Origin: a virus
Length of the DNA stretch: 20,365 nucleotides
Virus record (IMG/VR): IMGVR_UViG_3300024999_000477
Coordinates: 1-20,365 of that record
Strand: one strand, 5' to 3'
Position numbers and translations under genes: made by a program. The notes under the pieces were generated by a model. That model had not been told where the DNA came from and made no database searches. It was given only the letters and a program-made list of their open reading frames with translations. Below, piece after piece: positions 784-5,623 of this stretch. Within the stretch, counting starts at the first letter, position 1. Each line of letters opens with the position of its first letter.

Positions 784-1281
784 CTACTTCACTCCATCGA
801 AATAGTCAGGGGGCAAAGAATTTTTGAGCTCTTTCGGCATTAACTTTTCAGGCAAGAAGCGAACTAAAGCTCTTTCCACGAGCTCGTTCTTGCCCCTTCC
901 TGATGCCCTGTATGTCTTGTCTAGCCATTCCCATACCAACTCGTTGATCCTGACCGATAATTGTTCCTGCTTGACTCTCTTCTGCTTTTTTAACAGAAAC
1001 GAGCTTTCTTCCAAATTACTTTCTTGCTTGCTAGCGGGTGCGCTATCTTCCTCGCTTGCTAGCTTGCTAGAATTTGTGCTAGCTTGTGTGCTAGCGTGTT
1101 TACTAGCATCATTGCTAGCATTGATGCTGACACTCAAGCCATTATGCGTGCTTGTTGGTTCGCTTGCTAGTTCTCTAGTTTGATTGATAGTATCATTGCT
1201 GGCAAGTTGTCCCCCCGTGTCTTCTCCTTGATTAATGGGTCCGCGCTTTTTGTCCCATATATCAGGCTTCTTCAATACCAT
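784..1281 (-). CDS. ParB-like centromere-binding protein (ribbon-helix-helix) with tetrapeptide-repeat linker
   Basis: Likely the DNA-binding partner of ParA. The C-terminal part (LSVRINELVWEWLD, then GKNELVERALVRFL) has the strand-helix-helix pattern of MetJ/Arc/CopG-type ribbon-helix-helix proteins, the class used as centromere binders in many small ParA systems. The middle, about residues 25-90, is a run of 16 four-residue units, many ending in Ala-Ser, encoded by a 12-bp repeat (listed separately). I chose ATG 1281 (165 residues) because TAAGGAGGT stands nine bases upstream; a TTG at 1302 in the same frame lacks such a site. The gene overlaps the end of parA by 20 nt and is followed by a terminator at 694-722. 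The assignment as ParB-like rests on the domain and on its place after parA. Confidence 0.75.
   Translation of the reverse strand: MVLKKPDIWDKKRGPINQGEDTGGQLASNDTINQTRELASEPTSTHNGLSVSINASNDASKHASTQASTNSSKLASEEDSAPASKQESNLEESSFLLKKQKRVKQEQLSVRINELVWEWLDKTYRASGRGKNELVERALVRFLPEKLMPKELKNSLPPDYFDGVK
1018..1209. repeat. 12-bp-period tandem repeat with GCTAGC core inside the parB-like gene
   Basis: From 1030, successive 12-bp units begin with GCT or a near variant. GCTAGC or a one-base variant occurs at 1030, 1058, 1066, 1078, 1090, 1102, 1114 and 1126, with a strict 12-bp step from 1066 to 1126. GCTAGT follows at 1166 and GCTGGC at 1198. About 15 units stay in phase to 1209. On the coding strand this gives four-residue units with Ala-Ser. 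GCTAGC is self-complementary, so each copy could be a dimer-binding site. The repeat may be just a low-complexity linker, or an intragenic centromere (parS-like) array. Confidence 0.8.
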
Positions 1282-2050
1282 ACTCGGCAACCTCCTTAGC
1301 AAGCTCTACATACGTCTGTACGACCTCATTTTTAGGGTAGAGTACAATTGCTGGCTTTCCGTATCTAGGAGCGTCCCCAAACCTCACGGAACGGGGTATA
1401 GTGGTACGAAACATCTTTATACCCGTTTCAAGAAAGTGCCTCCTGGACGATTGCAGAACATCAGAACTAAGGACGGTACCAGTGACGTACATTGTGGCAA
1501 CTACGCCTAGTAACTTAAGATTTGGATTAGTTGCCCGTCTTGCTTGCCTAATCTCGTCTAGCATGGATTCTACGCCGTCTGTGGCAAGATATTCACATTG
1601 CATGGTTATTATAATCTTGTCGGCAGCGGTAAGCCCATTGAAGACCAACGGTCCACGACTCGGGGGGAGGTCTATAAATATAAAATCGTACTTATTCTTT
1701 ACCTTTACTAGAACATCCCTGAGCATAACCCTATGATCCGGATAAACGTCCGGATTCTCTTCTGCTAATTTGTCTAGCCCAGCAAGTTCTTTTTTAGCTG
1801 GGTATACATCAACGCCATAGGAAGTGCATACAATATCCTGCATAGTTGCTTCTTGTAAAAAAACATCATAAATAGAATACTTTAGCTCGCTCGGCAAAAG
1901 CCCGAAACTCTTGGATGAATCCCCCTGTGGATCAAAATCAATAAGAGCCACCTTATGCCCCATGTTTGCCAATGCACAGGATAAATTGGTAGCGGTAGCT
2001 GTTTTGCCGCATCCTCCCTTAGTTATGGCAATAGCGATAATCTGCCCCAA
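1262..2050 (-). CDS. parA: ParA family partition ATPase
   Basis: This 262-residue protein is a deviant-Walker ATPase that drives plasmid segregation on the nucleoid. The deviant Walker A motif KGGCGKTATA lies at residues 11-20, the Walker A' region around IDFDPQGDSS at 38-47, and the Walker B-like IFIDLPPS about residue 125. Length fits type Ib or phage-type ParA proteins without an N-terminal DNA-binding domain. The start is TTG 2050 with GGGAGG seven bases upstream. It lies 15 bp after rep and overlaps the ribbon-helix-helix gene by 20 nt, so the three form one operon. A complete parA beside a phage repressor is strong evidence that the element is maintained as a plasmid. Confidence 0.95.
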   Translation of the reverse strand: MGQIIAIAITKGGCGKTATATNLSCALANMGHKVALIDFDPQGDSSKSFGLLPSELKYSIYDVFLQEATMQDIVCTSYGVDVYPAKKELAGLDKLAEENPDVYPDHRVMLRDVLVKVKNKYDFIFIDLPPSRGPLVFNGLTAADKIIITMQCEYLATDGVESMLDEIRQARRATNPNLKLLGVVATMYVTGTVLSSDVLQSSRRHFLETGIKMFRTTIPRSVRFGDAPRYGKPAIVLYPKNEVVQTYVELAKEVAEYGIEEA

Positions 2051-2065
2051 AATAATTCCTCCCTT

Positions 2066-2566
2066 TCATAAATAAAACTTCTCATATTTTTCTGGTTTCT
2101 TAGTTCCCTTTTCTTTTTTATTATTAATTTTTTTATTAATACTGTTATTTTTAGAACTGTTAGTATTAGTTCCCTTGTTTTGCGTGCACTCATTTTCCGT
2201 GCACCCATTTTGAGGGATCGGTGCCGTTCCATCATTTTGAGGGATCGGTGATATCTCTGTATTTTGAATATAGACATTATGGCTGAATCTTCCGTTATCT
2301 TTAATTTGCTCGACTGTTATATATCCAATTGCGGTCAATAACTTAAAGTGCCTATAGTATCTAGATTCGCTAATTCCGAGATCATAAAGTATCTTAGATA
2401 ATCCGGGGAATGCGTTGCTACCTGCTCCGGCATAGCTAGAAAAGTACGCATAAATAGCCTTGGATTCTATAGTTAATCTCTTGTCTTGCATAACTAATTT
2501 GGGGATCGTGCCATATCCCCTAGAATTTATCCCGACTACTTTCAATATGTCCCTGTCTTTTCGCAC
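2066..2566 (-). CDS. HTH replication initiator-like protein (plasmid Rep)
   Basis: Residues 1-100 resemble winged-helix initiators of Bacillota plasmids and phages (HTH_36/RepA_N/DnaD-N type). The typical opening INSRGYGTIPKLVMQDKRL is followed by an AKAIYAYF-like helix and a recognition region, LGISESRYYRHFKLL. The C-terminal third is a Asn/Lys/Thr-rich tail with 18-bp DNA repeats and an AT-rich stretch. The frame is open up to TTG 2590, but GTG 2566 is preferred: ACAGGGG lies nine bases upstream, the family usually starts here, and TTG 2590 lies within the attenuator hairpin with no ribosome site. That gives 166 residues. Its place at the head of the parA operon, and the antisense RNA over its leader, support a copy-controlled initiator. 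It could instead be only a DNA-binding regulator. Confidence 0.7.
   Translation of the reverse strand: MRKDRDILKVVGINSRGYGTIPKLVMQDKRLTIESKAIYAYFSSYAGAGSNAFPGLSKILYDLGISESRYYRHFKLLTAIGYITVEQIKDNGRFSHNVYIQNTEISPIPQNDGTAPIPQNGCTENECTQNKGTNTNSSKNNSINKKINNKKEKGTKKPEKYEKFYL
2183..2250. repeat. Direct repeats in rep (possible iterons)
   Basis: CATTTTGAGGGATCGGTG occurs perfectly twice, at 2206-2223 and 2233-2250 (27-bp step). A second pair, CGTGCACTCATTTT at 2183 and CGTGCACCCATTTT at 2198, overlaps it with a 15-bp step. A very AT-rich tract (about 2100-2165) lies directly beside them. Several Bacillota theta plasmids have their origin iterons within rep, so this is a candidate plasmid origin. Confidence 0.55.
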
Positions 2567-2569
2567 AAT

Positions 2570-2606
2570 AAAAAACCCCTGTCTATTCAATTAGGAACTA
2601 GACAGG
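2570..2606 (-). terminator. Attenuator hairpin in the rep leader
   Basis: On the minus strand an 8-bp perfect stem CCTGTCTA / TAGACAGG (2599-2606 with 2578-2585, loop of 13) is followed by GG and a T run (2575-2570), just before the rep start. It has the form of an intrinsic terminator. A second copy of GACAGG upstream (2658-2663 on the minus strand) could pair with the first arm and block the hairpin. This is the layout of antisense-RNA-controlled attenuation. Confidence 0.65.
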
Positions 2607-2627
2607 AATAATTGAATGCTTTATAAT
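2599..2627 (+). promoter_or_regulatory. Promoter of antisense RNA
   Basis: TAGACA (2599-2604), a 17-bp spacer and a perfect TATAAT (2622-2627) form a strong sigma-A promoter on the strand opposite rep. No protein gene follows. The start point would be near 2634. Confidence 0.7.
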
Positions 2628-2633
2628 GTAAAC

Positions 2634-2719
2634 AACAACATAAAGCACGGGTTAATTCCTGTCTTCGGCATAACCTCTTTGAACATCACTTTGGCGGTGG
2701 GTAGTTCAGAGAGGTTTTT
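2634..2719 (+). ncRNA. Antisense RNA controlling rep (predicted, about 85 nt)
   Basis: The RNA would start near 2634 and end at a strong terminator. Its 13-bp stem is 2672-2684 with 2704-2716 (one G-U pair), followed by TTTTT. Within the big loop a further 4-bp helix (2686-2689 with 2697-2700) presents a seven-base loop UUUGGCG at 2690-2696. This contains a YUNR motif (UUGG), the signature of fast-pairing loops in plasmid copy-control antisense RNAs such as CopA/CopT. It is fully complementary to the rep leader and covers the GACAGG segment that could act as antiterminator. Its expected role is to lower rep transcription. Prediction only; no expression data. Confidence 0.7.
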
Positions 2720-2765
2720 CCTTTATGCCTAATTCGACAGGTTCAACCAATTATCCTTCAAAATC

Positions 2766-2879
2766 TTACCCGAAAAAATAAGTAACAAACTCATAGAGAT
2801 AAAGCGGGTCGAGTATAGTGAGTTCATCATCCACTACTATCCACTTAAAAAATCCTGCTAAATCGCGTTCAACAATCAT
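2766..2879 (-). CDS. 37-residue leader ORF upstream of rep
   Basis: The ORF starts at ATG 2879 with AAGGAAG eight bases upstream and ends in TAA at 2766. It lies between a weak promoter-like region (TATTAT at about 2901-2906 on the minus strand) and the antisense target. The peptide is hydrophobic and acidic, rich in Phe, Tyr, Leu and Asp, with no Cys and no known motif. It may be a small regulatory or leader peptide of the rep operon. The ribosome site supports translation; function is unknown. Confidence 0.45.
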   Translation of the reverse strand: MIVERDLAGFFKWIVVDDELTILDPLYLYEFVTYFFG

Positions 2880-3037: not shown

Positions 3038-3421
3038 TCACTTAGACTTCATTTTTTTGATCGACTCTAGGAGTTCGCGAAAGAAGATGGGGTCTATATC
3101 CTCGTTATATAAATCCTTGGCTAGCATAGCATATGGCAAGCTCTCCTGTTTGGCGAAGAACTCTATTACATCATCCGGTATATCAACATTATTCATCTCA
3201 GTGAGTTTACGCAGAGACATGATGTCGTTATCAAGGAGATATGCCGAATCAACACCCAGTGCCTTGGCCACCTTCTCTAATGCCCTGATCGACATGTTAC
3301 ATTTACCGTTTTCCGTGTCTGATAGATAAGACAAGGAAAGGCCTGTTCTTTTGTGCAGCTCAGTCAAGGATATATCCCTTATCTTTTCTCTAACATACTT
3401 TATCTTGCGGCCGTAGTCCAT
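3038..3421 (-). CDS. XRE-family repressor (cI-like immunity repressor)
   Basis: This 127-residue protein has an N-terminal XRE/lambda-type HTH domain (about residues 5-65, with SLTELHKRTGLSLSYLSDTE and the usual VAKALGV ending). A 60-residue acidic helical tail follows, with no LexA-type peptidase. It is divergent from a Cro-like gene with shared operators in between, the classical lysogeny switch. I chose ATG 3421, after AGGATG; a TTG one codon earlier is also open. No ImmA-type metallopeptidase gene is adjacent, so induction must use another route, perhaps an antirepressor. The gene has its own terminator. Confidence 0.85.
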   Translation of the reverse strand: MDYGRKIKYVREKIRDISLTELHKRTGLSLSYLSDTENGKCNMSIRALEKVAKALGVDSAYLLDNDIMSLRKLTEMNNVDIPDDVIEFFAKQESLPYAMLAKDLYNEDIDPIFFRELLESIKKMKSK

Positions 3422-3480
3422 CAATCATCATCCTATCTAAAATAAGTTGTAAGATTGTAGTTTCTCCTTTTATACATTCG

Positions 3481-3554
3481 TTATTCTCGAATAAACATAT
3501 TACATAATAACTAATATTTATGAAACAAAGCTTGATTATTCGAGATGTTCGAAG
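3481..3554. promoter_or_regulatory. Repressor operators
   Basis: An imperfect palindrome TTATTCTCGAATAA lies at 3481-3494, and the related TTATTCGAGATGTT at 3536-3549 followed by TTCGAAG (3548-3554). The first, read on the minus strand, is TTATTCGAGAATAA and shares 10 of 14 bases with the second. One sits near the repressor promoter region and the other fills the spacer of the cro promoter, as expected of operators for the XRE pair. Confidence 0.6.
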
Positions 3555-3560
3555 TATACT
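3532..3560 (+). promoter_or_regulatory. Early promoter (cro promoter)
   Basis: TTGATT (3532-3537), a 17-bp spacer and TATACT (3555-3560) form a good sigma-A promoter. The operator-like TTATTCGAGA overlaps its spacer, so the repressor should block it. It probably drives the Cro-like gene and may read on into the early operon. Confidence 0.7.
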
Positions 3561-3570
3561 ATATATATGT

Positions 3571-3600
3571 TATAGAGTAGCTTACCAGAACTACTCTATA
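3571..3600 (+). other. 10-bp perfect hairpin in the cro leader
   Basis: TATAGAGTAG (3571-3580) and CTACTCTATA (3591-3600) form a perfect 10-bp inverted repeat with a 10-base loop. It starts at or just after the expected transcription start and ends before the ribosome site. AAGGTATTTTT follows, so it could be a weak attenuator, a stability hairpin, or a DNA operator. Confidence 0.5.
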
Positions 3601-3627
3601 AGGTATTTTTACAAGGAGGTGAAAATA

Positions 3628-3825
3628 TTGACAATCGGCAGCCAAATTCGAAGATGTAGGAACACAAAGAAATGGACATTGAGTCAGCTTGGAGAACGCG
3701 CAAAGCTGAGAGAAAGCACTCTGAGTGAAATAGAGAACGGTAAGCACGGCCCGAGTATGAAATCACTTAAAAGGGTTGCCGAAGCCCTTGGGGTCGAAGT
3801 TGGGTATCTATTTCAGGCGGAGTAA
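3628..3825 (+). CDS. Cro-like XRE-family regulator
   Basis: The 65-residue protein is almost entirely one XRE HTH domain (helix-turn-helix around LSQLGERAKLRESTLSEIEN, then SLKRVAEALGV). The start is TTG 3628, because AAGGAGG (3613-3619) is eight bases upstream. A longer open frame from ATG 3520 would run through the promoter and is not credible. It is divergent from the longer repressor and has only the DNA-binding domain, as phage Cro proteins do. Confidence 0.85.
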   Translation: MTIGSQIRRCRNTKKWTLSQLGERAKLRESTLSEIENGKHGPSMKSLKRVAEALGVEVGYLFQAE

Positions 3826-4692: not shown

Positions 4693-4956
4693 ATGGAGAG
4701 GGAATTAGTAAGCGAATTTAAACGACTAACAGGGTTCAATGGCGGCGACGTTGCCGAAAAGTTCGGAGTAAGTCGGCAGTTCGTTCATCAAGCATTCAAC
4801 AACAACTCGTTGACGTATAAGGCGAGTTCGGCTTTTTACCTCAATTCGATGATCGGCGAAAAGATTTCAACCCTGAAGAAACAGGTGCAGGACTTGGAGT
4901 TTTTACAGGTCAGTATCGAGGGAAGCGTAACGAATGGAGAGGACAAACATGAGTAA
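4693..4956 (+). CDS. Small HTH DNA-binding protein
   Basis: This 87-residue protein starts at ATG 4693 after AAGGAGGGGGAGG; the open frame further upstream (to ATG 4624) has no ribosome site. Residues 15-40 (GGDVAEKFGVSRQFVHQAFN) form a clear helix-turn-helix. The C-terminal half (EKISTLKKQVQDLEFLQ) is likely a short coiled coil for dimerisation. It overlaps the Rha gene by 8 nt (ATGAGTAA), so they are coupled. Probably an early transcription regulator; the exact family is not recognised. Confidence 0.7.
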   Translation: MERELVSEFKRLTGFNGGDVAEKFGVSRQFVHQAFNNNSLTYKASSAFYLNSMIGEKISTLKKQVQDLEFLQVSIEGSVTNGEDKHE

Positions 4957-5623
4957 TTTAATCGCAATCCATGTTGAAGTTGATTTAGGAGTAAATGCTC
5001 ACGATGGTTCAGTGATAGTGAGTAGTAGATTTGTGGCAGATGTTTTTAATAAAGAACACAAGAATGTTCTGGCTGCAATCGAAAATTGCGAATGTAGTAT
5101 CGAATTCTCACGGCTTAATTTCAAGCCGTCAACCTATAAGGATTCACGAGGAAAAAAACAGCCCGAAGTCCTACTTACCAAAGATGGTTTCGCTTTTATT
5201 GTAATGGGTTTCACGGGAAAGAAAGCAGCGCAATTCAAAGAGGCTTATATCAATCGCTTTAACGAAATGGAAAAAGCCCTAAAGGATCTTAATATTGCAA
5301 GGCTCGAATATCCAGAACTCACCGATGCCATTAAGTCGATGCACGATGAACCAAAGTTCTTTCACTATGCAAATGAGGCCGATATGTTCAACCAGATAAT
5401 TTTAGGTATGAAGGCTAAGGAATTTCGCAAGAAACACGGTTTGGATAAAGGAGATTCAATCAGGCCATATCTTACTCCATTCCAAGCTGAAGCAATGCGA
5501 AAAATGCAACAGTTCGACGTTGGGCTAGTGGTGGCCGTACCGAACTTTACCGAGCGCAAGAAGATTCTCCAAACTTATTTCATGCAGACTTATTTCCCAG
5601 AGACATTAAGGCTGAAGAGTTAA
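4949..5623 (+). CDS. Rha-family phage regulatory protein / antirepressor-like
   Basis: Residues about 25-115 match the Rha (pRha) domain: VSSRFVADVFNKEHKNVLAAI, KDGFAFIVMGFTGKKAAQFK and the following NRFNEMEKAL helix. The C-terminal 100 residues (EADMFNQIILGMKAKEFRKK through TERKKILQTYF) resemble a second domain found at the C terminus of phage antirepressor-type proteins. ATG 4949 (224 residues) is chosen over the upstream ATG 4934, because GAGAGG lies just before it. Such proteins control early phage development. With no ImmA peptidase nearby, this is a candidate agent that lifts repression, which is inference. Confidence 0.85.
   Translation: MSNLIAIHVEVDLGVNAHDGSVIVSSRFVADVFNKEHKNVLAAIENCECSIEFSRLNFKPSTYKDSRGKKQPEVLLTKDGFAFIVMGFTGKKAAQFKEAYINRFNEMEKALKDLNIARLEYPELTDAIKSMHDEPKFFHYANEADMFNQIILGMKAKEFRKKHGLDKGDSIRPYLTPFQAEAMRKMQQFDVGLVVAVPNFTERKKILQTYFMQTYFPETLRLKS

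Follow-up and report, generated by a model that had tools for sequence, protein, structure and literature searches.

A putative antisense-RNA attenuation cassette in front of unrelated rep genes of probable phage-plasmids

The DNA stretch analysed here (the window) is a 20,365-base IMG/VR virus record. The leader of its replication gene, rep, contains a promoter on the opposite strand, a predicted antisense RNA of ~86 nt with a hairpin, four pairing arms and a terminator, all at the positions given in the preliminary description of this leader. Judged by sequence comparison, the arrangement is beyond chance and recurs in 12 distinct leaders. The cassette is likely (probability of roughly 0.8) to exert antisense-RNA attenuation that controls the copy number of a phage kept as a plasmid. 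In the proposed mechanism, a constitutively produced antisense RNA (positions 2634–2719, plus strand) would bind the nascent rep leader via its CUUUGG loop and then cover arm B of the leader. Once B is covered, arm C would be free to pair with arm D and form a terminator, and the rep ribosome-binding site lies in the 3′ arm of this terminator. Transcription would thus end before rep, and read-through RNA would be poorly translated. At a low copy number, with little antisense RNA, arms B and C would pair, the terminator would not form and rep would be made. More copies would produce more antisense RNA, which would close the feedback loop.

Organization of the rep leader

The rep gene (2066–2566, minus strand) encodes a 166-residue, winged-helix, initiator-like protein that lacks the DnaD C-terminal domain. 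The protein matches Pfam HTH_36 (5.6e-6) and a PHROG of DnaD-like helicase loaders and replication initiation proteins, and the rep protein of Enterococcus phage EF62phi exhibits ~51–55% identity to it over 70%. The start codon is most likely the GTG at 2566–2564, right after the terminator T run (2575–2570). On the minus strand, the genes are ordered as an XRE-type regulator, a 37-residue ORF, the leader, rep and ParA. The ParA partition ATPase (1265–2050, minus strand; phrog_164, 2e-55; Pfam AAA_31, 1.8e-46) is located downstream of rep. The XRE-type gene (3041–3424, minus strand; Pfam HTH_3, 1.9e-8), which lies upstream of the leader in the same direction, is a possible second regulator and is also observed upstream of the leader in L002, L016, L020, L021, L033, L034 and L037. 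The plus strand carries a divergent XRE regulator (3520–3825) and a Rha-like/antirepressor protein (4934–5623), so the earlier placement of the circuit beside a phage immunity region is fair. The small ORF of 37 residues (MIVERDLAGFFKWIVVDDELTILDPLYLYEFVTYFFG; 2766–2879, minus strand) is conserved upstream of related leaders, probably shares one transcript with the rep leader and has no relatives in plasmids by tblastn. The ORF is longer in L033, L034 and probably L029, with a hydrophobic, probably membrane-spanning end.

The antisense promoter (TAGACA-17-TATAAT; 2599–2627, plus strand), with its −35 box at 2599–2604 and its −10 box at 2622–2627, lies exactly where a strong promoter opposite rep had been proposed. 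It matches 11 of 12 consensus positions, and none of 300 shuffles of the window leader scored as high. In all 12 leaders, the promoter keeps its position with a spacing of 17–18 nt despite diverged surroundings, and its −35 box complements the 3′ end of arm C. Ten leaders have TATAAT or TATACT as the −10 box, and the other two have TAGATT and TACATT. The promoter is weak in L036 (p 0.21) and L037 (p 0.11).

The predicted antisense RNA (~86 nt; 2634–2719, plus strand) would start at ~2634 and end at its own terminator hairpin, with a folding energy of −31.4 kcal/mol (z −4.86). The long stem-loop with a T run that had been described downstream of the promoter corresponds to a hairpin at 2672–2716 (plus strand), which displays a CUUUGG (YUNR) loop, is followed by a T run to 2719 and covaries among the leaders. 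The apical loop had been given as the seven bases UUUGGCG; RNAfold closes a U·G pair and leaves a 5-nt UUGGC loop, but the YUNR motif holds in either reading. CUUUG occupies the hairpin tip in all leaders in three loop contexts (UUUGGC, UUUGCU and UUUGGUC), which agrees with expectation for a YUNR U-turn and may define specificity groups.

The four arms are located on the minus strand. Arm A (CCTGTC, 2736–2741) lies inside an invariant segment (CCTGTCGAATTA). Arm B (AGACAGGAAT; 2655–2664) is the antiterminator partner of arm C and resides within the antisense-covered region, in agreement with the earlier assignment of 2658–2663 as a covered antiterminator arm. Arm C (ATTCCTGTCTA; 2599–2609), whose complement holds the antisense −35 box, can pair with either B or D. 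Arm D (TAGACAGGGG; 2576–2585) forms the 3′ arm of the terminator and contains the likely rep Shine–Dalgarno sequence AGGGG (2580–2576). The predicted intrinsic terminator (2570–2606) consists of the C:D hairpin and six T residues (2575–2570) and ends three bases before the GTG, as expected from the earlier mention of a terminator hairpin just before rep. CCTGTC is found at 2741–2736 (A) and 2606–2601 (C) and GACAGG at 2663–2658 (B) and 2583–2578 (D). These four sites had been located precisely, but the statement that each motif occurs twice overlooked a third GACAGG at 2557–2552 (rep codons 4–6). Elements with another rep gene lack this copy, which is thus outside the cassette. As a whole, the window leader folds much better than its shuffles (z −4.98).

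Since arm D carries the ribosome-binding site, translation may also be blocked. Across the leaders, D has AGGGG, AGGAG or a near variant 8–9 nt before the GTG or ATG start, and antisense-induced sequestering of a ribosome-binding site is described for pSK41 RNAI (PMC5703833). The antisense RNA could accordingly act chiefly on translation through an induced C:D hairpin, with termination playing a minor part. We regard this alternative as somewhat unlikely: a run of 4–7 T residues follows C:D in 12 of 12 leaders, a feature that translation control alone does not require.

Pairing and predicted folding of the related leaders

The cassette was identified in 14 further IMG/VR contigs from six metagenome datasets, which yielded 12 distinct leaders including that of the window. 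Leaders were retrieved with a 21-base hairpin-loop pattern, a gapped A...B pattern, a small-ORF pattern and a second rep protein. L002 was obtained from a rep protein search (91% identity to the window rep). The leaders are non-independent samples from metagenome fragments. Neither A nor B was used to select L016–L022, L029, L036 and L037; L032–L034 were picked by the A...B pattern, and the conservation of A and B in these three is therefore partly by construction.

The antisense hairpin is strongly supported by covariation. In a MAFFT alignment of the 12 leaders (A2), 91.3% of the hairpin cells are paired, compared with at most 44% in slid controls. Two-sided changes occur at seven pairs in 17 cells, versus 4.6 expected, and none of 500 shuffles reached this level. 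RNAalifold recovered the antisense hairpin, C:D and an A:B helix unaided. In an alignment of B, C and D registered by hand, which favours the pairing percentages, B:C is 82.7% paired (slid controls, ≤49.1%) and C:D is 92.0% paired (≤57.5%). The duplex energies across all 12 leaders range from −9.5 to −16.6 kcal/mol for B:C and from −10.7 to −18.3 kcal/mol for C:D. B is the strongest partner of C between A and C in every leader and beats shuffles in seven (p ≤ 0.05); B:C does not rise above shuffles in L032, L033 and L037 (p 0.19–0.41).

Two diverged leaders retain the alternative pairings with other letters. In L036, arms B (GGGGTTC) and C (GAACCCCGTCTA) have changed together and D (TAGACGGGGG) remains complementary to C, and both B:C (GGGGTTC/GAACCCC) and C:D survive. 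In L037, B:C is rebuilt from ACGGGAG and CTCCTGT. B:C and C:D are mutually exclusive because both use C, and compensatory changes keep both. The suggestion that an antiterminator and a terminator exclude each other is thereby borne out, and the circuit withstands the ground that had been named for rejecting it, namely leader states that are not exclusive. Antisense binding to B would favour C:D. A chance assembly of inverted repeats and a promoter is vanishingly improbable. Simple promoter scanning over 1.2 kb does return five sites versus 4.1 in shuffles, but the compensatory changes in 12 distinct leaders refute this explanation.

Arm A (CCTGTCGAATTA) is identical in 12 of 12 leaders. It is predicted to pair with B in most of them, and in every leader it can pair with the C–D loop and D (shuffle p ≤ 0.016), though the loop sequences vary. 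In L036 and L037, A is unchanged and A:B is weakest (−8.9 and −6.3 kcal/mol, respectively). A:B was rejected as an essential first stem, given that A does not follow B in these two leaders. A stem around C (ATTCAATTA/TAATTGAAT) was also rejected, as it is broken in L023. In the predicted folds of L029 and L036, A:D closes around the hairpin and B:C. From the invariance of A, its capacity to pair with D and these two folds, we infer that the switch may have A as its fourth arm, paired with B when OFF and with D when ON. Calling A:D simply ON is difficult, because this pairing, too, would hide the ribosome-binding site.

A candidate mini-ORF of five codons (TTG AAC CTG TCG AAT TAG; 2730–2756, minus strand) overlies arm A and is preceded by AAGGA at a distance of seven bases. 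Translation of this mini-ORF (AAGGA-N7-TTG) or of the 37-residue ORF could in principle run the attenuator, with the antisense RNA being secondary. The 37-residue ORF is conserved, with only synonymous differences between the window and L023, and the mini-ORF frame with an upstream AGGA is present in nine of the 12 leaders over the invariant arm A. Nonetheless, the mini-ORF has lost its TTG in L033 and L034, A:D pairing also accounts for the invariance of A, and the conservation of the antisense promoter and the covariation of the hairpin would be left unexplained. Control by leader translation is thus very unlikely.

For control by the antisense RNA, the leader states were modelled as equilibrium ensembles. 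When the antisense-covered region was masked, C:D was predicted with a probability of at least 0.99 in 11 of 12 leaders; the exception is L034 (0.02), in which A:D probably wins. Without antisense RNA, B:C is the dominant pairing in nine leaders as long as D has yet to be transcribed. In the full leader without antisense RNA, B:C wins in seven and C:D in five (window, L016, L017, L020 and L032). The full window leader is predicted to adopt A:B and C:D at equilibrium, with a B:C probability of 0.00. At the stage that lacks D, A:B and B:C have probabilities of 0.80 and 0.20, respectively, a gap of 0.3 kcal/mol. The A:B helix of the window is strengthened by extra GGCATAA/TTATGCC pairs, and its closest relative, L023, folds to B:C without them. 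The default state of the window is not clear-cut because A:B competes with B:C. Folding with and without the antisense RNA, as proposed in the preliminary description, thus reproduces the terminated state upon masking but gives no clean ON state for the window itself.

Rep gene exchange and the phage setting

The leader homology reaches the rep start codon and then ends; the cassette is kept and rep is replaced. The window-type rep (HTH_36) is found in the window, L023 and L036, and a distant relative with 28–34% identity is found in L032 and L033. A Phage_rep_O-like rep follows the cassette in L016–L022 and L029, and a DnaD-loader-like rep follows it in L034 and L037. The three main rep types have no mutual similarity by BLASTP (E > 0.4). 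All rep proteins behind the cassette are short (128–169 residues where complete) and consist of the winged-helix domain only, without the C-terminal half of their ~300-residue relatives. The 166-residue window protein, compared with the ~300 residues of EF62phi and plasmid relatives, could on this account be a transcription regulator rather than a replication initiator, and the circuit would control something besides copy number. This interpretation is unlikely, as the rep types in this slot match replication-initiator and helicase-loader families and are adjoined by ParA (window and L002) and FtsK-like genes.

The cassette is not general to the window rep family. A covariance model built from the 12 leaders and run against EF62phi, Carnobacterium, Sarcina, Paraclostridium, Listeria and Enterococcus records detected no convincing homologue before related rep genes (best score, 14 bits), and a leader scan of the same rep genes found no comparable element set. 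The window leader also had no match by DNA search among 50,697 phages. In EF62phi (L007), the related rep is under other control; the region upstream of rep (1830–2160) contains a repeated, iteron-like GTGTACAGGTGTACAGGTAGACA and no antisense/terminator set.

The cassette-bearing elements are probable phage-plasmids, because in the 67.7-kb L029 contig the cassette, rep and an FtsK-like gene occur together with genes for terminase, portal, tail fibre and DnaB. The terminase was identified through PHROGs after a negative Pfam TerL_ATPase search. No ParA was identified in the L029 contig; ParA is present in the window, whose 20-kb record has no virion gene. The contigs are metagenome fragments without end repeats. 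The FtsK-like protein, searched in 98 genomes, has one relative (49%), which lacks the cassette.

Antisense-RNA attenuation is textbook plasmid biology. In the open-access papers searched, we found no account of antisense attenuation on tailed phages and no antisense attenuator common to unrelated initiators. The mechanism suggested by the sequences would thus be a known one, and the new aspects would be the phage setting and the placement of one cassette before three unrelated initiator types. If the attenuation reading is correct, the cassette is a compact replicon module movable between rep genes, and its natural compensatory mutants make the attenuator directly testable. It would also suggest RNA-level incompatibility, and hence superinfection exclusion, between phage-plasmids. 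More tentatively, the cassette may be a portable RNA device of tailed phages that sets lysogen copy number and loop-type incompatibility (UUUGGC, UUUGCU or UUUGGUC), whichever initiator follows. It would operate as a four-arm, two-register switch, with A:B and C:D in the OFF state (terminator formed and ribosome-binding site hidden) and B:C nested in A:D in the ON state, and A would be invariant through obligatory pairing with D in every element.

Comparison with known copy-control systems

The pT181/pIP501 logic ascribed to the leader holds at the sequence level: the promoter is kept, the hairpin covaries, B:C and C:D show compensation, B is antisense-covered and the terminator precedes rep. 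As in those mechanisms, a putative antisense RNA gene with its own promoter and terminator lies inside the rep leader, and the 5′ arm of a predicted pre-rep intrinsic terminator has an upstream pre-emptor as its alternative partner. The predicted antisense RNA overlaps the pre-emptor and would release the terminator, as modelled by masking (C:D ≥ 0.99 in 11 of 12 leaders). The leader has no Rfam match at the gathering threshold, and even at E ≤ 10 no copy-control RNA is among the hits. Weak L10-leader and PyrR matches were dismissed as below threshold and reflecting only an attenuator-like shape. The initiators are HTH_36 or Phage_rep_O-like winged-helix proteins rather than Rep_trans or PriCT_1. 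Given the lack of an Rfam match and the other initiators, the cassette falls outside pT181, pIP501 and pSK41 by descent. To the extent that sequence features define it, the cassette works like pT181 and pIP501 without being a member of those families.

The closest features are observed in staphylococcal pT181, in which RNAI/repC control uses an ~87-nt antisense RNA and a pre-emptor that pairs with the terminator 5′ arm, and the terminator immediately precedes the start codon and, by prediction, includes the ribosome-binding site (PMC5703833). The cassette resembles pT181 in antisense size, pre-emptor logic, terminator position and the ribosome-binding site in the terminator. The sequences and initiators are unrelated (rolling-circle Rep_trans in pT181, winged-helix here), and the extra invariant arm A, the upstream small ORF and the phage setting are distinctive. 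In the Inc18 plasmids pIP501 and pAMbeta1, RNAIII, alongside CopR, induces attenuation in a long rep leader via a U-turn loop (PMC4981023, PMC5703833). The cassette shares attenuation in a long leader, the U-turn loop and an upstream XRE-type gene, whose action on the rep promoter is only putative here. It differs in RNA length (136 nt in pIP501, ~86 nt here), in its unrelated initiator and in the small ORF between the regulator and the leader. The pSK41 RNAI of staphylococcal RepA_N plasmids (~83 nt) is similar in size and induces a hairpin that hides the rep ribosome-binding site, but it does so without attenuation (PMC5703833), whereas a T run follows the hairpin in the cassette.

Exchange of an antisense control module among non-homologous rep genes, up to the rep start, is described for Pseudomonas REx-C (PMC5304414) and resembles the exchange seen here. 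As far as the consulted part of that account goes, REx-C represents ColE2-like post-transcriptional control on Gram-negative plasmids, with no attenuator in its description. Extrachromosomal mycobacteriophage replicons require a non-coding RNA for replication beside parABS in plasmid-like prophages (PMC7157519). They likewise combine an RNA-based replication function with partition genes, but the RNA is required for replication there and is a predicted rep repressor here.

Two minor observations concern other sites. In L013 (Paenibacillus hexagrammi plasmid pYPD9-1), the ~330 bases before a distant rep (36% identity) at 2965 include a terminator that holds the ribosome-binding site (TCCTCCTG...AGGGAGGATTTTTT). 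This leader also has a candidate antisense promoter and hairpin and is possibly an independent case of such control. In the window, a non-coding region at 647–757 gives a 113-nt match with 89% identity to L002 (3812–3924), and the flanking genes are unlike. This region holds a strong minus-strand terminator (CCCGACTGAAAAGCCGGGTTCTTTTTTT) and could be a partition site or just a terminator that both records share.
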